This document shows positions 5,319 through 39,993 of a DNA stretch of 64,000 nt, in pieces. Made by a program: the position numbers and the translations under genes. The notes below the pieces were generated by a model that had not been told where the DNA came from, did no database searches, and saw nothing but the letters and a program-made list of their open reading frames with translations. The stretch's first letter is position 1; the number at the start of each line of letters is the position of its first letter. The stretch comes from Candidatus Methylomicrobium oryzae (lineage in GTDB: Bacteria > Pseudomonadota > Gammaproteobacteria > Methylococcales > Methylomonadaceae). Location: the NCBI RefSeq assembly GCF_016745425.1, contig NZ_JAERVK010000011.1, positions 124,001-188,000 of the forward strand. The letters run 5' to 3'.

Positions 5319-7149
5319 CTGGTTGATGAAAGCTGTCGTATATACGTTGCGCCAATTGACGGCTGATGCCGTCTATGCTGGAAAGCGCATCCACACCCGC
5401 CTGGGTTACGCCTTGCAGCCCCCCGAACTGTTTTAGTAATGATTGCCGCCGCTTGGGCCCCAGTCCTTCAATCGATTCCAATACCGAGCGTTTTTTTGCC
5501 TTGCCCAGCCTTTGCCGATGCCCGGTGATCGCAAAACGGTGCGCCTCGTCGCGAACATGCTGGATCAGCAGCAGGCCTCCTGCGCCCGGATTGACCGCAA
5601 GCGGTTGATTTTGATCGACAAGGATCAGTTTTTCCATGCCGGGCTTCCGGTCCGGGCCTTTTGAAACGCCGACTATCATAACACTGTTTATGTCCAATTC
5701 CGCCAGTGCCTTTTGCGCTTCGTGCACCTGCCCTTTGCCGCCGTCGATGAAGAGAATGTCCGGCGCTTCGTGTTCGCCCTGTTTCAGGCGCTTGAAACGC
5801 CGCATGACGGCCTGATGAATCGCCGCATAATCGTCGCCCGGCGTGACGCCCTCGATATTGAAGCGCCGGTAGGCCGATTTGACCGGGCCTTCCCGGTCGA
5901 ACACCACGCAGGAGGCGACCGTCTGTTCGCCCTGGTGATGGCTGATGTCGAAGCATTCGAGCCGTTTCGGCAATTCCGCGAGGCCGAGTTCGTCCTGAAG
6001 GCTCAGGAAACGCGCGTACAGGCCCTGTTTGTCGGCCAGCTTGTTCTGCAGCGAGGTTTCCGCATTCTCCACGGCCATTTGCAGCCATTTCATCCGTTCG
6101 CCGCGGACGTTCGTGCTGATCGCGACCTGATGCTTGGCCTGATTGGCCAGCACCTCGGCGATCAGCTCGCTCTCTTCGAGCGCATGGCTGACGATCAATT
6201 CGTGCGGCGGCGGCCGCTCCAGATAATATTGCGCAACGAACGCCTGCAGGATCGCGGCCGGATCGTGTTCGTCCGACATCTTCGGAAAGAACGGCTTGTT
6301 GCCCAGATGCTGGCCGCCCCGGATGAAGAACACCTGGATGCAGGCCATGTTCGCTTTCGTCGCGCAGGCGATGATGTCGACGTCGCCGCGTTCGCCGTGC
6401 ACGAAATTCCTTTCGAGAATCGCGCGCAATTTGACGATCTGGTCGCGGTATTGCGCCGCCCGTTCGTATTCCAGCGCGGACGCCGCCTGTTCCATTTTCG
6501 CGATCAATCGCTCGATTAGCAGTTCCCCCTTGCCTTCGAGAAACAGGACCGTGCTTTCGACGTCCTGCGCATAGCCGGGTTTGTCGATCAAACCGACGCA
6601 GGGCGCGGTACAGCGTTCGATCTGATATTGCAGGCAAGGGCGGGTGCGGTTTTGAAAGACCGAGTCCTCGCATTGCCGCACCGGAAAGATTTTCTGCAGC
6701 AGTTTCAGGCACTCCCGGACCGCGCCGACGCTCGGATACGGCCCGAAATATTTGCCCGGCCGCTTTTTGGCGCCACGGTGAAAGGTCAGCTGCGGAAAAG
6801 CGTGTTCGCTGGATAGATAAATATAAGGATAGGACTTGTCGTCGCGCAGGCAAATGTTGTAACGCGGCTTATAGCGTTTGATCAGTTGCGATTCGAGCAA
6901 CAAAGCCTCGCCTTCGGTATGGGTTACGGTCACTTCGATCGCGGCGACTTTCGCCACCATCGTATGCTGCTTGATCGATGCCGTTTTATTGTTGAAATAA
7001 GTCGAGACGCGGTTTTTGAGGTTTTTGGCCTTGCCGATATAGAGGATTTCGCCGTCGGCGTCGAGCATGCGGTAAACGCCGGGACGCGTGGTCAGGTTTT
7101 TGATGAAACCTTTGGCGTCGAAGGAGTTTTTAGGTTGTGCGGAATTCAT
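5308..7149 (-). CDS. uvrC: Excinuclease ABC subunit C
   Basis: A 613-residue UvrC, the nuclease subunit of nucleotide excision repair that cuts on both sides of a lesion with UvrAB. The GIY-YIG nuclease domain lies at residues 15-100 (GVYRMLDADGEILYIGKAKN), a UvrB-interacting UVR helix near 205-240 (IAKMEQAASALEYERAAQYRDQI), the RNase H-like second nuclease domain with ECFDISHHQGE around residue 400, and C-terminal helix-hairpin-helix motifs (LESIEGLGPKRRQSLLKQFG). Length is normal for the family. First gene of a uvrC-pgsA pair. Confidence 0.97.
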   Translation of the reverse strand: MNSAQPKNSFDAKGFIKNLTTRPGVYRMLDADGEILYIGKAKNLKNRVSTYFNNKTASIKQHTMVAKVAAIEVTVTHTEGEALLLESQLIKRYKPRYNICLRDDKSYPYIYLSSEHAFPQLTFHRGAKKRPGKYFGPYPSVGAVRECLKLLQKIFPVRQCEDSVFQNRTRPCLQYQIERCTAPCVGLIDKPGYAQDVESTVLFLEGKGELLIERLIAKMEQAASALEYERAAQYRDQIVKLRAILERNFVHGERGDVDIIACATKANMACIQVFFIRGGQHLGNKPFFPKMSDEHDPAAILQAFVAQYYLERPPPHELIVSHALEESELIAEVLANQAKHQVAISTNVRGERMKWLQMAVENAETSLQNKLADKQGLYARFLSLQDELGLAELPKRLECFDISHHQGEQTVASCVVFDREGPVKSAYRRFNIEGVTPGDDYAAIHQAVMRRFKRLKQGEHEAPDILFIDGGKGQVHEAQKALAELDINSVMIVGVSKGPDRKPGMEKLILVDQNQPLAVNPGAGGLLLIQHVRDEAHRFAITGHRQRLGKAKKRSVLESIEGLGPKRRQSLLKQFGGLQGVTQAGVDALSSIDGISRQLAQRIYDSFHQPDDH

Positions 7150-7535: not shown

Positions 7536-8426
7536 ATGAACGCTCCTGCGGCGCTGTATCAATCGGCACTGACTTCCTTAAAGCTTCGCGCCCGCGGCAA
7601 GGTGCGCGATATTTACGACATCGACGACCGGCACATGCTGATCGTGACGACCGACCGGCTGTCCGCCTTCGATGTGATTTTGCCCGATCCGATCCCCGGT
7701 AAAGGGCGCGTGCTGACGCATATCTCGAATTTCTGGTTTGCGAAAATGCGACACGTGATTCCGAATCATCTGGTCGATATCCCGCTCGAGCAGGTCGTTC
7801 CCGATCCGGACGAACGCGCGCAGGTCGAAGGTCGGGCGATCGTGGTGAAAAAATTAAAACCTTTGCCTGTCGAAGCGATCGTGCGCGGCTATCTGATCGG
7901 CTCGGGCTGGAAGGATTATCTGAGAACCGGCGCCGTCTGCGGCATCCGCCTACCCGAAGGGCTGCAGCAGGCTCAGCAATTGCCGGAGCCGATCTATACC
8001 CCCTCGACCAAGGCCGAAGTCGGCGATCACGACGAAAACGTGAGCTTCGCCAAGACGGTCGAACTGATCGGCGAAGCGCTGGCCAATCAGGTGCGCGAAA
8101 CCAGCCTCAAACTCTATAAGGAAGCAGCCGCCTATGCGCAGGAACGCGGCATCATCATCGCCGACACCAAGTTCGAATTCGGCGTTGACGAGCAGGACGT
8201 GCTGTATTTGATCGACGAAATTCTGACTCCGGATTCGTCCCGCTTCTGGCCGGCCGACCAATACCGGGTCGGTATCAGTCCGCCGAGCTTCGATAAACAG
8301 TATGTGCGCGACTACCTGGAAACGCTCGATTGGGACAAGACCGCGCCGGGGCCGTCCCTGCCTGCCGAGGTGGCGGAATACTGCGCGGCCAAATACCGGG
8401 AGGCGGAAGTCCGCCTAACGCAATGA
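7536..8426 (+). CDS. purC: SAICAR synthetase (phosphoribosylaminoimidazole-succinocarboxamide synthase)
   Basis: A 296-residue PurC of the longer type (about 300 residues, as in yeast Ade1 and many proteobacteria, against about 237 in E. coli). It joins aspartate to CAIR using ATP in purine synthesis. The N-terminal nucleotide site reads [16 protein letters not shown] then [11 protein letters not shown]; the conserved [16 protein letters not shown] and [10 protein letters not shown] follow, and the C-terminal [11 protein letters not shown] with [11 protein letters not shown] is also family-typical. The stop codon overlaps the next start as ATGA at 8423-8426, coupling it to xthA. Confidence 0.97.
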
Positions 8427-9187
8427 AAATTATTTCGTGGAATGTGAACGGCATCCGTGCGGTGCAGGGGAAGGGCTTCGCCGAGACGCTGGCGCGGCTC
8501 GACGCGGACTGCCTGCTGCTGCAGGAAACCAAGGCGCAGGTCGAGCAGATCGAAAAGGTGACGGCCGACATCGACGGCTATCACATTTATTCGAACTGCG
8601 CCGAGCGCAAGGGTTATTCGGGCGTATCGCTGATGTCCCGCGCCGAGCCGCTGGCGGTGGTCAAGGATATCGGCATCGCCGAGCACGACCGCGAAGGGCG
8701 GGTCATTGCGGCCGAGTTCGAGCATTTCCATCTGGTGAACGTCTATGTGCCCAATTCGGGCCAGGAGCTGGTCCGGCTCGATTACCGGAGAACGTGGGAT
8801 GCCGAATTTCTGGCATATCTGTTGACGCTGGAGAGCCGGAAGCCGGTCATTGTGTGCGGCGATTTCAATGTCGCGCACCGCGAAATCGATATCGCGCGGC
8901 CGAAGGCGAATTACAACAAGTCGGCGGGCTATACGCAGGCCGAAATCGACGGTTTCAGCCGTTTTCTCGACGCCGGATTCGTCGACACGTTCCGTCATTG
9001 CCATCCGGATACGGTCGCTTACAGTTGGTGGAGTTTCCGCGCGAATGCCCGCGCCAATAACATCGGATGGCGGATCGATTACGTGCTGGCCAGCCGGGCG
9101 CTGGCCGGCAAGGTCAAACAGGCGTTCATCCTCCCTGAAGTTACCGGCTCGGACCATTGCCCGGTCGGCATCGAGATTGATTTATAA
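8423..9187 (+). CDS. xthA: Exodeoxyribonuclease III
   Basis: A 254-residue AP endonuclease/exonuclease of the ExoIII family, which cuts at abasic sites during base-excision repair. I start it at ATG 8423 ([19 protein letters not shown]), not at the upstream in-frame codon, because family members begin exactly here and the start overlaps the purC stop. Metal and catalytic residues are visible: N7 in WNVNG, the E in [18 protein letters not shown], and the C-terminal [11 protein letters not shown] with the catalytic D-H pair. The next gene, a uracil-DNA glycosylase homologue, follows after 3 bases, so two base-excision repair steps are likely coexpressed. Confidence 0.96.
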
Positions 9188-29344: not shown

Positions 29345-31300
29345 CTATGCCTCAAAAGAATAGCCGAGCCTTTTTTGTTTGGCATGGTACATGCTGGCAT
29401 CGGCGTAGCGCAGCAACGCATCGCAGTTGTCTGCGTGGCGGGGATAAAGGGCGATACCGATGCTGACGCCGAGGCGGATCGATTCTCCATTGTAGGTGAT
29501 CGGTTCATGAATGATTTCGACGATCTTTTTCGCGACGGACGCGCACGCTTGCTCGTCGCAGTCCGGCAGCAGCAGCGCAAATTCGTCGCCGCCGAAGCGC
29601 GCAGCAGTATCGGTATCGCGCAGAGTAGCCATCAGCTTTCTCGCGACTTCCTTTAGCGCATGGTCGCCCGCGGCATGCCCTAATCTGTCGTTCAACGATT
29701 TAAAGCCGTCCAGATCCAGGTAATGCACTGCAAAAGGCATCCGGTTGCGATTTGCCATCGCGAGGGAATGTTGCAGGCGTTCGATGAACAGCCGCCGGTT
29801 GGCAAGGCCGGTCAATTCGTCGTGAAAAGATAGCCAGATCAGGCGTTCGTCTTCCTGCTTGCGTTTGGTGATTTCGAAAACCAGGCAGTCGATGCCGATA
29901 CAGTTGCCGAATTCGTCATAAACCGGCTCGCTGGTGATTTCCAGCCAATGCCGCTCGTTGCCGCTATCGTAGACTTCAAGCGCGAAGGGAGCGCAGGGGA
30001 TGCCTTGGCGGTTCAGTTCGAACAGGTTGTTGATGCTTAGATTTTCGGGGTTGTCGGTAATGTAATGTTGAAATCCGGCAATGAAATCGTCGGGCCGATA
30101 GCCGAGCATCTGGGTCACGGAAGGGCTGACATAGGTGATTTTGCTCTTTTTATCGCATTGAAAGAAAAAATAGTTTTTACTCTGATTTTCGATCAAATTG
30201 CGAAAGCGGATATCGTAGTTTTGCAGATCGGTCGCGCGTTTCAGCAGCATCCGTTCAAAATCGCCCGGCAACTGCGGATCCGGGGGCGCGGCGTGCGCCG
30301 GTTTGTCTTGACGAGACGGCGAGGCACGGCGGATATGGCGCCGGACGCGCACGCCCCATATCCAGACATAGCTGATAACGAATAAAAATAAGAACGGCGA
30401 TATCGTTTCCTGCAAGCCATTTTCGGCGAGTGTAAACTCTTCCGGCTGGACGGGGGCGGGGTTTTTCTCGGCGGCAACGGGGAGCTCGGGAGGCGGAGGC
30501 ACCCACTTGAAATAGATCGCATTCATTTCCGCTTCGCTCAACACGTCCAGCCCTTTTTGTAAAATGCCGGCCAATATCGGCCAGTCTCCGCGCACGGCAA
30601 TGCTTTCATCGGCCGTATGGCGCTCGTAAAAGCCGGCGAATTTGATGCCGGTCAACCGGTGACTGGTTTGAAGATAATTGGCGGTGCCTACGAAAGTAAT
30701 GCAGGCATCCGCTTTTTGCGCGCTGACCGATTGCAGGCATTCCAGCATCGATTCCACAGGATGGGGCTTGATCGAGGGATGCTTTTTTCTGATGCCTTCC
30801 GAAAATTGATAGCCTTTAGGATAGGCGACGGTTTTGCGGGCAAGGTCATCGGGCGCTTTGATTTCGGTATCCGACTCCCTCGTAATGAGCGCCAATGATT
30901 TGGTCAGATAGGGATGGGTGAAATTAAACCAGAGTCTGCGTTCGGGGCGGTCGACCATCGTCGCGACTACATCCACGCGACGTTCGGCGGCGGCTTTGTA
31001 AAGCTGGTTCCATGATTTCCGGGGAAATGGTTCGAAACGGATGTCCAGTTTCCGGCTCAGCGTATCGAAAATGTCGACCGCGATGCCGCTGAAACGGCCG
31101 TCCGAATCGGCAAAACTGTAAGGCGGAAGGGAGTCGTCGAAAGCGACCCGAATTTTTTTATGGTGCGCGAGCCATGCTTTTTCTTTTACGGTCAGTTTTA
31201 TCGAAGGCGGGGCTGAGGTTTGGCTGCGCCACATCATTTCGGTGGTGCTGTCTGCCAACGCGCAATTCACCAGCAGGCACAAAGCAATCATGGGGGGCAT
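29345..31300 (-). CDS. Periplasmic solute-binding domain, PAS and GGDEF diguanylate cyclase
   Basis: A membrane receptor of about 651 residues. After a signal peptide (MPPMIALCLLVNCALA), a type-3 family solute-binding domain (KEKAWLAHHKKIRVAFDDSL; GRFSGIAVDIFDTLSRKL; VDVVATMVDRPERR) faces the periplasm. One membrane helix (FLFLFVISYVWIWGV) leads to a PAS domain and a C-terminal GGDEF domain with intact active site RFGGDEFALL and inhibitory-site R-D-T-D five residues upstream. It should make c-di-GMP in response to an amino-acid-like ligand. The open frame extends upstream to 31507; I place the start at 31300 because that yields the signal peptide, but no good ribosome site marks it. Confidence 0.9.
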   Translation of the reverse strand: MPPMIALCLLVNCALADSTTEMMWRSQTSAPPSIKLTVKEKAWLAHHKKIRVAFDDSLPPYSFADSDGRFSGIAVDIFDTLSRKLDIRFEPFPRKSWNQLYKAAAERRVDVVATMVDRPERRLWFNFTHPYLTKSLALITRESDTEIKAPDDLARKTVAYPKGYQFSEGIRKKHPSIKPHPVESMLECLQSVSAQKADACITFVGTANYLQTSHRLTGIKFAGFYERHTADESIAVRGDWPILAGILQKGLDVLSEAEMNAIYFKWVPPPPELPVAAEKNPAPVQPEEFTLAENGLQETISPFLFLFVISYVWIWGVRVRRHIRRASPSRQDKPAHAAPPDPQLPGDFERMLLKRATDLQNYDIRFRNLIENQSKNYFFFQCDKKSKITYVSPSVTQMLGYRPDDFIAGFQHYITDNPENLSINNLFELNRQGIPCAPFALEVYDSGNERHWLEITSEPVYDEFGNCIGIDCLVFEITKRKQEDERLIWLSFHDELTGLANRRLFIERLQHSLAMANRNRMPFAVHYLDLDGFKSLNDRLGHAAGDHALKEVARKLMATLRDTDTAARFGGDEFALLLPDCDEQACASVAKKIVEIIHEPITYNGESIRLGVSIGIALYPRHADNCDALLRYADASMYHAKQKRLGYSFEA

Positions 31301-31890
31301 TTTCAGGATATGCGGGTTAAGTCGGGGAGATACGCGATTAAATGCGTTGTTTCGAATGTATGCATGGTTCGAAATGTTTGAGCTTCCGGTTGAGTTCCAT
31401 CCGTTATTAGACGGTGCGCTGGTCCTGACGTTCAATGCGCAGGACGGCGGCGCCTTTTTGACGCGGAGTTTCGTTCCGGCAATGCTGTAGAGAATAGAAA
31501 CAAACATGCGGCAAAAAATTGATCCCGATCAAAAAATCGTCAATGTTCCAAAATTTGAAACGAGGGCAGTCAAGCTTTTTTACGGGGGCCTCGGCGATCT
31601 GCATGATGCCGCGTTCCTGGGTTGATCTTGACCGCACACCGTCGATCCTTTGCTTTGGCAGGTATTTCAGCACATAGACGGCCTAATTGCCAGCTTTTAA
31701 ACCGTGTTCGGGTTTCATCAAACCGTCACGGAACAGTTAACGTTTTGTCATAAACGCTTGCTATTTTATCCGCTGTATCTGTCGGGAACGAGCCAGAAGA
31801 AAGGCATGATTTTTCGGACAAGTCGAGCAAGCCCGATGTCTGTATCGGAACGGCCGGCCTGTTCGGTTACAAAAGGAAAAATAACTCCGG
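31301..31890. other. Gap between divergent cyclase and glycosyltransferase genes
   Basis: About 590 bases if the cyclase starts at 31300. Open frames here (31407-31673 minus; 31704-31982 plus) show no domain, signal or start site. The region should hold two divergent promoters, but I see no strong one. Confidence 0.4.
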
Positions 31891-34097: not shown

Positions 34098-35021
34098 ATG
34101 AGAGCGGTAAAAAATATTATGGTTTTTGACAATGATAAATATTTTTTATTTATGCTTAAAGGTTATTGTTATGCGAATGATGTGCGGATGGTTGAGGCGG
34201 AGTTCAATATTGATGGAATTAAAGAAGTGCAAAGATGCAGTCCCGGGCTAATTTTAATTTCACTCGACTTGATCAGTTCCTTGGAAAATAAAAGCATCGA
34301 AACCGATTTATTACGGTTGGCATGCAAAGACAAAGAAATAAAAATCTATGGTCTAAATAAAAGATCCGGTAATATTGTCTCGGCTGATATTCCTGAATGG
34401 ATTGACAGCTTCGTAAATAATCCCATGAATATTTCCGAAATTGACAAGCTTGTTAAATTCGTTTTTAGATATAATGGGTTACAGGATCGAAGAATACATA
34501 AAGAAAGGCGCATAATAAAAGACAGAAGGCAGGACAACATTAATAATAGCGGCTATGCTGGAAATCAAGAAATAAAAACCGGAAATCCTGATTATCCTTT
34601 TCATGAAAACGGAAAATCGCAAGACTTCTATGTCGATACCCGGAACAAATGTTTAATTCTAAAAGGCCATAAGATTGATCTGACTCCGAAGGAATTCGAA
34701 CTGATTGAGTATCTATCAACTGATCCTGACCGTATTTTTACACCGGATGAAATCGTAAAACACCTTTGGCCTGAAAATCATCGAGCAACAAAATCGGATC
34801 TTTATCAATATATTCACTTGTTACGGAAAAAAATAGAAAAAGACCATAATCATCCGCAATTCATATTAAATGCCAAAGGTTTTGGATACAAGCTGAACAT
34901 TTTAAGTCGGCAGAATTCAGGTGAAATTTCTGATTCACAAGGAAAAAGTACAGGAAGAGTCAAGCAAGCGGAACATTTGCCGATGGCGGCTGATTTACGC
35001 CGTAGATTTAGCGTGTTTTGA
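34098..35021 (+). CDS. Winged-helix regulator with degenerate receiver domain
   Basis: A 307-residue OmpR/PhoB-type protein. Residues 5-115 align with a receiver domain and keep the acidic pair (MVFDNDKYF), but the phospho-accepting Asp position is S55 (PGLILISLDL) and the conserved Lys before Pro is N108 (SFVNNPMN), so it is unlikely to be phosphorylated in the normal way. A charged linker (residues 120-175, with ERRIIKDRRQ) leads to a complete winged-helix domain at 178-270 (LTPKEFELIEYLSTDPDRIF; SDLYQYIHLLRKKIEK; FGYKLN). Codon use is AT-rich. It lies 845 bases upstream of the Fap-like cluster on the same strand and is the obvious candidate regulator. Confidence 0.88.
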   Translation: MRAVKNIMVFDNDKYFLFMLKGYCYANDVRMVEAEFNIDGIKEVQRCSPGLILISLDLISSLENKSIETDLLRLACKDKEIKIYGLNKRSGNIVSADIPEWIDSFVNNPMNISEIDKLVKFVFRYNGLQDRRIHKERRIIKDRRQDNINNSGYAGNQEIKTGNPDYPFHENGKSQDFYVDTRNKCLILKGHKIDLTPKEFELIEYLSTDPDRIFTPDEIVKHLWPENHRATKSDLYQYIHLLRKKIEKDHNHPQFILNAKGFGYKLNILSRQNSGEISDSQGKSTGRVKQAEHLPMAADLRRRFSVF

Positions 35022-35866
35022 CAAAGTCGGGCAATTGCAAAGAAGGCGTTTTGAATTTGGATGAATGAGGTTAATTGACGGTTAGACACGTGGTGGGCTG
35101 GCTGAATATTTAACCGATTTAAAGCAGTTTTTCCATCATACAAAGAAATGAAATGGTTCTTTTTTAAAGATGCTCATCAGTGCTGCTTTGACAGTCATAC
35201 TGCGTTTCGATGGGCAATTATCCGAAATCGCTTTTGAGAATTGAGGCTTTTGCCATGCCGATTATTGCCGTCAAGATTGAGGGCGTGTCGGGTATGCCCA
35301 CATGCCCTTAAATTAAACTCTCGTCGTTATACAAAAGTTCTGCAAACTCATACATTGGAGTTCAAAGCTTGCTTTGAGTGCCGTACTTAAGAGTGATCCA
35401 AAGCAAGCTTTGGACGCTTGCCAGTCTAATTATCGGGTCAGGCTATCCGAGGTGCATAACGACGAGAATTAAACCACTTCATTCTATTTCGGCAATCCAT
35501 GCCAAAATAAAGAATTTATCTTACCTTAACGGCATTGCCGCCTACAAAAAGGCATCTTCAAATTTGATTGTTCATTCAGTATTGTTCGATGCTGTAATCC
35601 TCTTCTCTTGCTTCAGTCTTTGAAAAAGGCATTTCTTCTCTGCCCCTAGGAAGACTTCATTTTACTTTTCATGAAGTATTTTTAGATGTTCTTATAAATA
35701 AAATTTAATGCTGATTTTATGGAATTTTAAACTGAAGCTGAAAGATACTTTGCCTCAGGTAATAGCCAATCTGATTCATTCTTTAAGGTTGAAGAGAAAG
35801 CTAGTTCCTATCTCTGTCGGATCGATATCCGATGGAATTCGAAACTTTAATTATGGAGTAATAGCT
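35022..35866. other. 845-base gap upstream of the Fap-like cluster
   Basis: AT-rich and without a credible gene. It contains a 12-base inverted repeat (tctcgtcgttat at 35319-35330, reverse complement at 35456-35467) and between its arms a tight palindrome tccaaagcaagctttgga (35397-35414) plus a near copy of that palindrome at about 35355. Such nesting suggests a small non-coding element. An AT-rich stretch just before the cluster (around 35690-35705, ttataaataaaat) could be promoter material. Confidence 0.45.
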
Positions 35867-36730
35867 ATGAATCATTTCAATGAGAAAATATGGGTTGCAA
35901 GTGTTCTTATGGCTTTGGGCTCTACTTCCAACGCTTGGGCGGATCCTGCTAGCACAACAGATGATGTGCAAGTTGCAATTGTGGATACGGCTAGCAAAGG
36001 TCAGGGCAATGCTGCTGCGAGCGACCACAGTTCGTCCACTTCCACTACGACCAACACGGATAGCAGTCAGGACAACGATACCATTACCAAGACCGATACC
36101 CAAACCCAAACCCAAACCTACAGCGACAACGATACGGCTACAAAGACCGATACCAAAACGATTTCCAAAACAGAAACCGGCGGTATTGGCGAAGATGGCA
36201 AGGCAAAAGCTGACAATAACGGTGCCGCAGTGAACGGCAGCGGATCGGCAACTTCCAACAAAACCTATACCGGCGGCCAGGGCGAGGATGCCTATGTAAA
36301 AGCTAAAGACAATTCGGCTGCTGCGAATAACGGCAACGTAACTTCGACTGTTGCGACTTACGAGTCGGCTGTCAAGGGAGACGGCTCCGCATCGGCTAAT
36401 GTTGGAAATGCCACTGCGACCTATACGGCGACCTACATAGAACAGAAGCTTTTCGGCTTCGGAAATGCCGCTTCAGGTTCCGGTGATGTTACCGTTAACA
36501 ATCAAAAATTGGACGGTGTGGTAACCGGAATTGCGGCTGTCGTGCCGATTGAGGATAAATTTTCGGTTGTGGCTGCACTCGATGCTAATAAAATCAATGG
36601 TTCGGTTATAGGGAATGCGGGCATTACCCAAACTTTCCAAAATTCAGGCACCGCTTTAAACCAACAGAACATACAGGTTAGCGGTACTATCAATATTGGT
36701 GATGCAACTGCAACAGTGCCGGTACCTTAA
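35867..36730 (+). CDS. Secreted Cys-free Thr/Asn/Gly-rich repeat protein, candidate fibre subunit
   Basis: A 287-residue protein starting at ATG 35867 (GGAG at 35854-35857 upstream; the longer frame from 35708 would hide the signal peptide). Signal peptide cut after AWA (residue 25). Residues 55-102 are Thr/Asp/Gln/Ser-rich (TQTQTQTYSDNDTATKTDTK). Two imperfect 31-residue repeats follow at 105-135 and 136-166, both beginning GG-x-GED. The C-terminus has GITQTFQNSGTALNQQN, a motif shared with the next gene. There is no cysteine. The composition and repeats resemble amyloid fibre subunits such as FapB/FapC, but I do not recognise a direct homologue, and known FapC proteins carry a CxxC that is missing here. 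Confidence 0.8.
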   Translation: MNHFNEKIWVASVLMALGSTSNAWADPASTTDDVQVAIVDTASKGQGNAAASDHSSSTSTTTNTDSSQDNDTITKTDTQTQTQTYSDNDTATKTDTKTISKTETGGIGEDGKAKADNNGAAVNGSGSATSNKTYTGGQGEDAYVKAKDNSAAANNGNVTSTVATYESAVKGDGSASANVGNATATYTATYIEQKLFGFGNAASGSGDVTVNNQKLDGVVTGIAAVVPIEDKFSVVAALDANKINGSVIGNAGITQTFQNSGTALNQQNIQVSGTINIGDATATVPVP

Positions 36731-36821
36731 TGTTTATTGATTGTTTTAGTTAATAGATAGCCGATAGCCGGTGAATGGTGGATTGTTCACCGGCTATCGG
36801 TCGACAAGGCGCAACTGTACG

Positions 36822-36832: not shown

Positions 36833-37198
36833 ATGGAAGCGATATTCAAGAACTTCTTTTTAATGGCATTACTCATGATGGCGGGAAGTTCCACGGTAAA
36901 TGCCGACTCTTTTCAAACATCGAAAAAGTTGATGCTGTTGGCTTCCGCCGAAAAAGCGTTGTCGGAAGAGTTGGATAAGGCGCGGGGCCGGGAAGGCGTG
37001 GATGTGGCAACGTTGAATCTCCAGAACGTCCAGGCTACGCTCAACAACAATCAGGCCTCCAATAATGTGAGCGGTTACAACGTGATAGCGGATGGGTCAT
37101 TTGCCGGTGCCAGCGGCATTACCAGTGTGGTTCAAAATAGCGGTAATAACGTCATCATCCAAGATACCACTATTGTGAATGTAACAGTCGCACCTTAA
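36833..37198 (+). CDS. Small secreted protein with QNSG motif
   Basis: A 121-residue exported protein (signal peptide MEAIFKNFFLMALLMMAGSS, cut after VNA, residue 24). A helical, charged middle (KLMLLASAEKALSEELDKAR) is followed by an Asn/Gln-rich beta segment: LNNNQASNNVSGYNVIADGS then ASGITSVVQNSGNNVIIQD. The GIT-x3-QNSG string is the same as in the preceding protein. It could be a minor fibre component, nucleator or chaperone; the function is inferred from context only. It is 102 bases after the repeat protein and 23 bases before the C39 peptidase gene. Confidence 0.8.
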   Translation: MEAIFKNFFLMALLMMAGSSTVNADSFQTSKKLMLLASAEKALSEELDKARGREGVDVATLNLQNVQATLNNNQASNNVSGYNVIADGSFAGASGITSVVQNSGNNVIIQDTTIVNVTVAP

Positions 37199-37221: not shown

Positions 37222-37914
37222 ATGCGACGTTTTTTGGGCACATACATCCTGTTCGCTTTACCTGTATTCTGTAGCAATGCGGGTTCCCTCAATCTAAATG
37301 GCATTGCCGGCGGCGGGAATTATGAGCTGCCGGTGACGACTTTTTTAGAGCGGCGCTTCAAAACGGTTTACAAACAACAATACGATTTCAGTTGCGGTTC
37401 GGCGGCATTGGCCAGTCTGCTGACTTTTCATTATGAAGATATCGTCAGCGAACGCGATGTGTTTATCGATATGTATCTGAATGGCAATCAGGAAAAGATT
37501 CAAAAGCAGGGATTTTCGTTACTCGATATCAAACGGTTTCTGGAAAGGCGGGGGTATCGCTCCGATGGGTTCAAAATTAATCTGGCTCAATTGGTTACTG
37601 CCGATGTTCCGGCGCTTACCATCATTAATAACAACGGATACATGCATTTCGTGATTATAAAAGGCGTCACCGATCAGGAAATTCTGGTGGGAGATCCCGC
37701 GGTAGGCGTAAAAGCGATTCCTCGCGATGAGTTCGAAGCCATGTGGCAGAATCGTATTTTGTTTTTAATTTATGACAAATCGGATCTGGCTGGGAAGCAT
37801 TTTCAAGATGAAGATGAGTGGGCTTTTCGGGTCAAGGCGCCTTTAGGGGCCGGTGTCGATCGAAAAAGCCTGAGCGAATTTAATTTGCTGCAACCTTACT
37901 TCAAGGATTTTTAA
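37222..37914 (+). CDS. Periplasmic C39-family cysteine peptidase (FapD-like)
   Basis: A 230-residue protein with an N-terminal signal sequence (MRRFLGTYILFALPVFCSNA) and a C39 peptidase fold. The catalytic set is complete: oxyanion Q53 and C58 in QQYDFSCGSAALASLL, H142 in YMHFVIIKG and D158 in LVGDPAVG. C39 peptidases classically cut after double-glycine leaders. In Fap operons a stand-alone C39-like protein, FapD, sits next to the fibre and porin genes, as here. Its stop overlaps the next start as TAATG, so it is translationally coupled to the gene whose product has a GG site. Confidence 0.9.
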   Translation: MRRFLGTYILFALPVFCSNAGSLNLNGIAGGGNYELPVTTFLERRFKTVYKQQYDFSCGSAALASLLTFHYEDIVSERDVFIDMYLNGNQEKIQKQGFSLLDIKRFLERRGYRSDGFKINLAQLVTADVPALTIINNNGYMHFVIIKGVTDQEILVGDPAVGVKAIPRDEFEAMWQNRILFLIYDKSDLAGKHFQDEDEWAFRVKAPLGAGVDRKSLSEFNLLQPYFKDF

Positions 37915-38426
37915 TGCAGAGGATGCAGGGAGTGCAGAACGTGAATATCAATAAAACTTTCGTCTACCCTAAACTCATGCAGACAGTGTTGCGGATAGCG
38001 TTTTGCGGCGTCTTTGGCGCGGCAAGGCAGGTGTTAGCCAATGAAATGCCGGACATTGAAAGCCAACGATTTGTCCATTGGGAACGTGCTTCCGACAGCG
38101 AACTGGATCTGCTCAGGGGTGGGTTTATGCTTCCGAACGGGATGAGCATCGACTTTAGTATCCAGAGAATCATCTCTTTGAATAATGAAGTCATCTTATC
38201 TTCATTCTCTCAATTACCGAGCAATATCACATTAATTCAGAATGGCGACTTCTCGCAAGCACCTGCTCTCGGCATGGCCGGTTTGGGGACGGTAATTCAA
38301 AATAACTTGGATAACCAAACGATTAAGTCACTCACCAATATCGATTTAACCGTAAGTAATATTAAAAGTATGCAATTAAATTCCGGAGCCATGGTTTTTA
38401 ACAGCCTTATTATGTCCAATCGGTAA
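37914..38426 (+). CDS. Secreted protein with ELxxLxGG double-glycine site
   Basis: A 170-residue protein. The hydrophobic signal core (TVLRIAFCGVFGA) starts after about 22 residues, so either the N-region is long or translation begins at ATG 37977; coupling to the C39 gene favours 37914. Soon after the signal comes SDSELDLLRGG (residues 60-70), which fits the double-glycine consensus LSxxELxxIxGG. The remainder is beta-like (MSIDFSIQRIISLNNEVI) and ends with GLGTVIQNNLDNQTIKSL, a relative of the QNSG motif in the two upstream proteins. I infer it is the substrate of the adjacent C39 peptidase. Confidence 0.8.
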   Translation: MQRMQGVQNVNINKTFVYPKLMQTVLRIAFCGVFGAARQVLANEMPDIESQRFVHWERASDSELDLLRGGFMLPNGMSIDFSIQRIISLNNEVILSSFSQLPSNITLIQNGDFSQAPALGMAGLGTVIQNNLDNQTIKSLTNIDLTVSNIKSMQLNSGAMVFNSLIMSNR

Positions 38427-38558: not shown

Positions 38559-39890
38559 ATGAAGAGCAATTTTGGATATGGAAAATTTCTTCAATGCCGG
38601 ATTGTTAAAGGGGTTATATTTATCTGGTGTTGTTTTTTTGCGAGCAGGAGTTATGGGGTAACAGGCAGGCAAACCGATGAATTAGCGGAATATAAAAAAC
38701 TTATTGCCGAGCAGCAAAAGCAATTTGAAAGACAGCAACAAATAATTGCCGAGCAAGGCAGACAGCTGGAACTGTTAAAAAAGCGCATCGATTCTTTGGC
38801 AAGTCAATCGGGACAGAACAATCAGGGCCTCCCCGCGCAAGCATCGGGTCAGTCTCAAATGGCTTCGGCAAAAAACGATAGAGGTCCTTCATCAAAGTCG
38901 GCCCTACTTCCCTCCAAACCCGTCGGCCAGGCGCCTCCGGAAGTAAAAAAACAAAGGCCCCCCGAGATTCCCAGATTAAGCCAGACCGTTGGCGGCGTGT
39001 TGACCCGCAAAAACAACCTGGTTTTTGAGCCTTCGATTTTGTACAGCTACTACGATAATAATCGGATTTTCCTGGATGCCTATACCCTGCTTCCGGCTAT
39101 TGCAATCGGCCTCATCGATGTTCGCCAAATCAAACAGCACACGCTGATGGGTAACGTCGGGCTGCGGTATGGTTTGACTGACCGGTTGGAACTTGAGCTG
39201 AGGGTTCCGTACGTATACCGTACCCAAGAGCAGCGCGCCCGGCCATTGGATCTTTCCCCGTCGGGCGTCGATAAAGTTTTCGAGACCGATGGAAGCGATA
39301 TCGGCGATATTCAGTTCGCCGGCCGCTATCAGCTCAACTCGGGCTCTGACGGCTGGCCCATTTTTGTCGCCAATATGCTGGCGACGGTGCCTACCGGAAA
39401 AAGTCCTTTCGATATTCCACAAATTTATGCGACAGGGATTCCGGGCTTTAATTTTCCTGCGGAGTTGCCGACGGGGGTCGGATTTTTTAGCGCCCAGCCC
39501 AGCATTACAGCGCTTTACCCTACGGATCCCGCGGTATTCTTCGGTAATATCGGGTATATTTATAATGCGGAAACAAGCACCAATGCCGGCGATTTTGATC
39601 CGGGCGATACCCTAGGGATAAGTTTTGGCCTGGGTTTCGGTATCAATGAACGCTCCTCATTCAGTCTGGGATACTCTCACCGGCATATTTTCAATTCTTC
39701 TCTTGATGGGGTGGACATAGAAGGAAGTGCAGTCGATATCGGGCAACTTTTGGTAGGTTACTCCTATAAATATTCCAAAAGAACCACATTCAACTTATCT
39801 TTATCTTTAGGCGCCACAACCGATGCGCCGGATGTTACGCTTGAATACCGGATGCCTATGACTTTCGATGTGGCTAATCTATTTAAATAG
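38559..39890 (+). CDS. Coiled-coil plus beta-barrel outer-membrane protein (FapF-like)
   Basis: A 443-residue exported protein. After a signal region (VKGVIFIWCCFFASRSYG), residues 38-84 form a strong coiled coil (EYKKLIAEQQKQFERQQQII and onward), then a Gln/Ser/Pro linker to about 145, then a barrel of about 290 residues with alternating aromatic strands (NNLVFEPSILYSYYDNN; GNVGLRYGLTDRLELELRVP; SFSLGYSHRHIF). Short periplasmic coiled coil plus a barrel is the layout of FapF, the outer-membrane pore for Fap amyloid subunits. Last gene of the cluster; an inverted repeat follows 35 bases later. Confidence 0.86.
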   Translation: MKSNFGYGKFLQCRIVKGVIFIWCCFFASRSYGVTGRQTDELAEYKKLIAEQQKQFERQQQIIAEQGRQLELLKKRIDSLASQSGQNNQGLPAQASGQSQMASAKNDRGPSSKSALLPSKPVGQAPPEVKKQRPPEIPRLSQTVGGVLTRKNNLVFEPSILYSYYDNNRIFLDAYTLLPAIAIGLIDVRQIKQHTLMGNVGLRYGLTDRLELELRVPYVYRTQEQRARPLDLSPSGVDKVFETDGSDIGDIQFAGRYQLNSGSDGWPIFVANMLATVPTGKSPFDIPQIYATGIPGFNFPAELPTGVGFFSAQPSITALYPTDPAVFFGNIGYIYNAETSTNAGDFDPGDTLGISFGLGFGINERSSFSLGYSHRHIFNSSLDGVDIEGSAVDIGQLLVGYSYKYSKRTTFNLSLSLGATTDAPDVTLEYRMPMTFDVANLFK

Positions 39891-39924: not shown

Positions 39925-39993
39925 CAATGTCATTAAGTTAAGCCATCATCCCGGCATTCTTTGCCGGGATGACGAACTTTTTGTCTTAACTTA
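39925..39993. repeat. Palindromic element with caatgtcattaagttaag end, copy 1
   Basis: An outer pair (39933-39942 ttaagttaag; 39985-39993 cttaactta) encloses a stable inner hairpin catcccggc/gccgggatg (39947-39955, 39963-39971). It lies 35 bases after the FapF-like stop and could end that transcript. Its left end matches the left end of the element at 41021. Confidence 0.75.

Follow-up and report, generated by a model that had tools for sequence, protein, structure and literature searches.

A Sec-exported double-glycine leader protein as the proposed substrate of a periplasmic C39 peptidase in a Fap-like gene block

Described systems that pair C39 peptidases with leader-bearing substrates

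C39 exporters recognise Leu-12, Glu-8 and Leu-7 of a leader together with a Gly-Gly, Gly-Ala or Gly-Ser end, and in the LahT-leader crystal structure positions -4 to -11 form a short helix, with -4, -7 and -12 lying in a hydrophobic groove (PMC6363468). The PCAT/AMS systems (ComA, PCAT1 and LahT) act on bacteriocins, whereas the locus described here lacks an ABC transporter, carries Sec signals on both the peptidase and its proposed substrate, and has as that substrate a fibre-type protein of about 100 amino acids. Both share Glu at -8, Leu at -7, a hydrophobic residue at -4 and GG in the leader, as well as the C39 fold and catalytic triad.

In Pseudomonas, the activity of the C39 peptidase FapD is essential for amyloid secretion and its substrate has been described as undetermined (PMC5557850, PMC6173800). 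According to a 2017 study, FapD acts in the periplasm, the active-site mutant C38A abolishes secretion, and the Fap proteins are said to lack canonical C39 sites; FapE was the only one for which peptides from about the first 70 residues were missing, and it was from mass spectrometry that FapE was proposed as a FapD target (PMC5557850).

Two further systems are related. The Neisseria Nap island (NapP, NapF and NapABC) also has a C39 peptidase and a FapF-like channel, its substrates carry a GG motif, and their cleavage in the periplasm is only proposed; it differs from our locus in that the substrates are small cationic peptides and a holin-like protein, not Sec, is the possible inner-membrane step (PMC11798529). 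The Acinetobacter Fil system (FilA, FilB and FilC) has a FilB-type C39 peptidase, a FilC-type barrel and, in FilA, a Sec signal and the leader MDDAALSAATGQ followed by D, but with GQ instead of GG and a different core protein. In the open-access literature, to which our search for a Sec-borne double-glycine leader was confined, only Fap, Nap and Ax21 were relevant, so priority is uncertain.

A Fap-like gene block with a stand-alone C39 peptidase

The window, that is the whole analysed stretch of 64,000 nucleotides from a methane-oxidising bacterium, contains five co-directional genes on the + strand that form an operon-like block at 35.7-39.9 kb. Its features are as follows:

35708..36730, + strand: large subunit (340 aa as listed), exported by Sec and rich in Ser, Thr, Asn and Asp, candidate major fibre subunit
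36761..36800, between the large- and small-subunit genes: perfect 15-bp inverted repeat without a T tail (repeat search)
36833..37198, + strand: small Sec protein, here called UP, 121 aa, a homologue of the GG protein by alignments and hhalign
37222..37914, + strand: FapD-like periplasmic C39 peptidase with signal peptide, 230 aa (Pfam, NCBIfam and model)
37393-37395, 37645-37647 and 37693-37695, + strand: codons of the catalytic triad C58, H142 and D158
37914..38426, + strand: GG protein, 170 aa, with Sec signal, double-glycine leader and beta-rich FapE-like core, the proposed substrate
38088..38123, + strand: leader positions -12 to -1, ASDSELDLLRGG (conservation in 81 loci)
38118-38123, + strand: codons of the two glycines, with the proposed cut, which is inferred, after 38123
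38559..39890, + strand: outer-membrane barrel protein of 443 aa, FapF-like, whose N-terminal part is a coiled coil (NCBIfam FapF)
39946..39972, + strand: terminator-like hairpin 3' of the barrel gene (consensus scan only)

The peptidase passes Pfam Peptidase_C39 (PF03412; 71.7 bits against a cut-off of 22), and its best NCBIfam matches, FapD (125.6 against 330 bits; the Fap models are NF058616, NF058559 and NF058560) and FilB (NF050078; 116.1 against 475 bits), both remain below the cut-off. The catalytic cysteine is residue 58, where the original prediction had placed it, and C58, H142 and D158 are invariant in 51 homologues. The predicted model has a core pLDDT above 90; Foldseek searches with it retrieved ComA, PCAT1 and LahT (3k8u, E 1.5e-7; 6mpz, E 6e-6), and these double-glycine peptidases are its nearest neighbours by structure and sequence. 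The defining fusion of C39 to an ABC transporter in PCAT/AMS enzymes is not found in this stand-alone protein of 230 aa, which begins with the hydrophobic signal MRRFLGTYILFALPVFCSNAG. The open reading frames at 37222-37914, a C39 peptidase with a Sec signal and no transporter, and at 37914-38426 are as they had been described, and the genome encodes no C39 ABC exporter. Because no other C39 domain, and hence no PCAT exporter, was found in the window genome (99.8% complete), processing by an ABC exporter is excluded, and a cytoplasmic PCAT was ruled out in that role.

The rest of the block resembles Fap at a distance. The best NCBIfam match of the barrel is FapF (E 7.5e-45; 153.5 bits, not reaching the cut-off of 700), the NCBIfam FapE model does not match the GG protein of the window, and the large subunit has no match in Pfam or NCBIfam, including the FapB and FapC families with their imperfect repeats. 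As all Fap family scores lie well below the curated cut-offs, we regard the block as Fap-like and not as a canonical fap operon. The gene order around FapD-type peptidases is fapB-fapC-fapD-fapE-fapF, of which the window has the part fapD-fapE-fapF with homologous proteins. The block thus shares with Pseudomonas Fap the order peptidase, FapE-like protein and FapF, a Sec-exported C39 peptidase, a coiled coil joined to a barrel, and a GG protein homologous to FapE; it differs in having GG instead of GR or GK, a short core of about 100 aa, and no FapB or FapC family match.

Homologues of the large subunit, which are of low complexity and rich in N, D, S and T, lie 5' of the small subunit at most of the loci of the genome scan presented below (76 profile matches in total), and the true start of the large subunit is probably internal, at MNHFNEKIW... 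By limiting or processing the transcript, the inverted repeat at 36761-36800 might cause the major subunit to be made in excess. Terminator-like sites found by the consensus scan were not clearly more numerous than in shuffled sequences. By eye, an OmpR-type DNA-binding regulator and a diguanylate-cyclase-like protein lie near the operon (window positions 34098-35021 and 29345-31507), and signalling control of the operon by these neighbours is possible but untested.

A conserved leader linked to the peptidase

In the GG protein, residues A59 to G70 read ASDSELDLLRGG and are followed by F71. Glu at -8, Leu at -7, Leu at the hydrophobic position -4 and Gly at -2 and -1 agree with the C39 recognition signal, and the only departure is at -12, where Ala replaces Leu; with the same exception, the helix and groove positions match those of the LahT-leader complex. 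The predicted model, which has a low pTM of 0.39, places a helix at residues 61-67 and the strands of a beta domain from residue 70 onwards. In our reading the signal peptide probably ends near A42 (VLA/NE, the slash here and below marking a cut), so that the stretch SDSELDLLRGG, placed by the original prediction about 20 residues after the signal, starts about 17 residues past it, at residues 60-70. The overlap of the peptidase stop with the next start (TAATG) is real as letters, but it may not mark the true start, as GTG codons at 37932 and 37941 fit the N-termini of homologues. At most loci the gap between the peptidase gene and that of the GG-protein homologue is about +2 to +30 nt.

A search of 84,980 species genomes, in which the peptidase alignment was the only query, yielded 80 loci, whose neighbouring genes we inspected afterwards. 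A GG-protein homologue lies downstream of the peptidase in 81 of the 81 loci with sequence available there (including the window and one relative, L006), and a UP homologue lies upstream in nearly all of them. These loci span Gamma-, Beta- and Alphaproteobacteria, Geobacteraceae and other deltaproteobacteria, those closest to the window genome being from Methylobacter species. Since many are closely related (ten Methylobacter, several Nitrosomonas), the counts do not represent independent events. The leader reads LxxxRGG in 77 of the 81 loci (76 of 80 counted automatically, plus L059 found by hand) and ends in RAG or RGA in the other four. An initial reading that L034, L046, L051, L052 and L086 lack the motif was rejected, as they read RAG, RAG, RAG, RGA and RGG, respectively.

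Among 77 distinct leaders, a few of which had been mis-anchored by simple scoring and were corrected on re-check, Leu at -7 and Arg at -3 each occur in 71, Gly at -2 in 75 and Glu at -8 in 51, and the residue after the leader is Phe or Tyr in 66. In a 45-member alignment of the GG family with a mean column identity of only 19%, every member has R68 and G70 and nearly every member has L64 and G69; the motif is the most conserved stretch of the family. The expected invariance of the GG and E-L positions was therefore borne out for L-7, G-2 and G-1, which like R-3 are almost invariant, with E-8 found in a majority only (51 of 77).

The position of the motif is informative as well. A hydrophobic segment precedes it in 75 of 80 cases, at a median distance of 35 residues from the GG. 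Most Sec forms have the GG between about residues 45 and 90. In L050, L052, L057 and L059 it lies at about residue 285-350, behind long N-terminal parts, and in Paraburkholderia at about residue 378-471. Whatever the length of the N-terminus, it always stands immediately before the conserved core; such a fixed boundary behind a variable N-terminus is what a processing site needs and would not be explained by a random structural GG. The proteins of L051 (RAG; 7676-8929) and L057 (7659-8912) have an N-terminal inner-membrane segment and a long coiled coil ahead of the GG-type domain, and a cut there, which is inferred, would free the C-terminal domain from its membrane anchor. In L014, a second C39 gene (3521-4321) with its own FapF-like barrel lies 3 kb upstream of the first system, with no GG protein directly adjoining it.

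Related leaders occur in UP and in FapE. UP aligns with the GG family by hhalign (probability 97.4, E 1.3e-11) and carries a degenerate leader, EELDKARGR/EG, and the tail VVQNSGNNVIIQ; across loci, its leader ends mostly in RGR, TGR, RGL or RAK. Between the GG family and FapE, hhalign finds a match that covers the leader and the first strands (probability 94.9, E 4.5e-8). NCBIfam names as FapE all four tested proteins that lie downstream of FapD-type peptidases, and in a genome with FapD above the cut-off, by score typical of Pseudomonas, the FapE leader is QTFKPIELKDQELATLRGR, followed by YVMPGR. Every leader in an 11-member FapE alignment ends in RG[RK], its R and G being two of 13 invariant columns among 365. 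The original prediction, in which the GG protein would provide a substrate for FapD-type peptidases, needs one correction: the strict GG is not universal across FapD-type systems, and the finding that was to refute the prediction, homologues without GG, is met literally in canonical FapE, though with the leader kept. In another genome with Fap genes (L129), the FapD frame is truncated (167 aa; 6514-7017 of the reverse complement) and is followed by a transposase-like open reading frame.

The linkage between leader protein and peptidase is strict. A survey of 61 relatives placed the GG protein and peptidases of the close type (above 360 bits) in exactly the same five genomes and at the same six loci. 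The GG profile matched 11 times in 274 sampled genomes of the class, always within 0.7 kb of a FapD-family peptidase, and none of these 11 lacked a C39 peptidase nearby. In the genomes tested, co-occurrence with the C39 gene, proposed earlier as a check, therefore holds in both directions without exception. Of 353 Sec-like open reading frames no more than 1.5 kb from these peptidases, 57 have a strict double-glycine leader after a Sec-like segment, against 1 of 843 frames that lie farther off or on the opposite strand. A second, independent set, which also includes some GG-type loci, gave 11 of 137 near frames and 1 of 260 distant frames of the same loci.

The inferred cut, its rivals and a wider route

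We consider it likely that, within a Fap-like system for amyloid secretion, the adjoining C39 peptidase takes the 170-aa protein as its substrate and cuts it at RGG/F. The peptidase and the GG protein would both cross the inner membrane by Sec and shed their signal peptides. In the periplasm, the peptidase would bind the remaining N-terminus of roughly 28 residues through its short helix (E-8, L-7 and L-4) and cut at RGG/F, and the beta-rich FapE-like domain thus freed would use the FapF-like barrel for export or anchoring and would probably start or tether the fibre there. The original order of events, Sec export and then periplasmic C39 cleavage, is supported by these data, with the cut itself unproven: cleavage, the exact bond and the role in the fibre are inferred, as is the periplasmic site, which rests on the signal peptides and the precedent of FapD. 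Against this reading stand the Ala at -12, the mere majority of E-8, and the leaders of FapE (GR/GK) and UP, which break the Gly-Gly/Ala/Ser rule and mean either that other P1 residues are tolerated or that the motif is in part for binding only. Known C39 enzymes are not expected to accept the ends RGR, RGK, RGL and TGR at P1; the ways out would be a P1 pocket that is wider in this branch, or cleavage one residue earlier.

The second way out leads to a variant that does not exclude our preferred reading and that we judge unlikely, namely a cut between the glycines (RG/GF). A single rule of small P1 and free P1' would then also fit FapE (RG/RF and RG/KY) and UP (RG/R and RG/L), the first Gly being common to the three homologous leaders; L-7, E-8 and the hydrophobic -4, however, stand in the canonical register only with a cut after the second Gly, which the GG family keeps in 77 of 81 loci. 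Residues 60, 70 and 136 of the peptidase separate the GG type (S60, H70 and N136) cleanly from the FapD type (Ala, Ala and Asp) and may relate to the difference between GG and GR/GK leaders. This is only a lead, and LahT, which has Ala in place of S60 yet cuts GG, counts against the part of S60 in it.

The absence of the second Gly from the UP and FapE leaders would also suit a leader that docks to the peptidase or to FapF and stays uncut, with the C39 protein acting like a chaperone in the manner of the C39-like domain of HlyB, and C39-like domains that do not cut do exist (PMC6363468). We hold this to be rather improbable, given a triad invariant in 51 homologues, a GG kept in 77 of 81 partners and the abolition of secretion by FapD C38A (PMC5557850).

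Doubt is greater still about the FapF-like barrel as the main substrate, with a cut at LSxTVGG/VLT changing the state of the pore and the leader of the GG protein being secondary. In the 443-aa protein of the window, the linker LSQTVGG/VLT precedes the barrel and may be a second cut site; GG is present in 15 of 20 pattern-matched linkers of homologues, and cutting of FapF has been suggested before (PMC5557850). The remaining five linkers have PG, SG or MG, and many loci have no same-strand FapF match within 4 kb while the GG protein is always present. That the GG is merely a structural feature of the first strand, kept by chance or lineage and unrelated to C39, has a precedent in Ax21, which was initially taken for a substrate of type I (RaxABC) secretion and later shown to be Sec-processed (PMC3897388), but we reject it as very improbable in view of the position-specific match to the C39 leader, the enrichment beside C39 genes in two independent sets, the linkage in 11 of 11 cases, and the same kind of motif on other Sec proteins beside other periplasmic C39 genes.

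The last point comes from forty further loci at stand-alone C39 genes and three from plasmid records, where a Sec-type gene with a similar leader is often nearby. Examples are FilA of Acinetobacter, a Photobacterium leader, LTDDEMSSLRGG followed by F, and the short proteins with LTDNQMDNVSAGG, VENSELASTEGG and LQDDALASTEGG; several of the most distant C39 genes in this set had no such leader-bearing neighbour. Short Sec-signal proteins with LTDxQMDxVSAGG or VxNxELAxTEGG leaders lie beside the stand-alone C39 genes of L191, L192, L178, L174 and L190, several with FapF-like genes and some in tandem copies, and are possible secreted peptides.

For the Fap family, our preferred reading, cleavage of the GG protein at RGG/F, turns the open question of the FapD substrate into an exact predicted cut position. 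The textbook C39 site is retained in the GG-type homologues, and the aligned FapE leader differs from it only in the last residue. Judged from sequence alone, the conserved pairing in about 80 genomes points to FapE as the putative target of Pseudomonas FapD; the tryptic peptides expected from the FapE leader fall in the part missing from mass spectrometry, which agrees with removal of the leader and does not prove it. The extension beyond Fap is a separate and less certain claim. On balance we lean, by a narrow measure, towards Sec export, periplasmic C39 removal of a double-glycine leader and exit through a FapF-type barrel being a general Gram-negative route. If true, Fap-like fibres, FapE, FilA and short Sec peptides (such as ALTDNQMDNVSAGG and PVENSELASTEGG), all with variants of one leader, would take this route, which would be a Sec-coupled counterpart of PCAT export and would add a fully extracytoplasmic branch to double-glycine processing.
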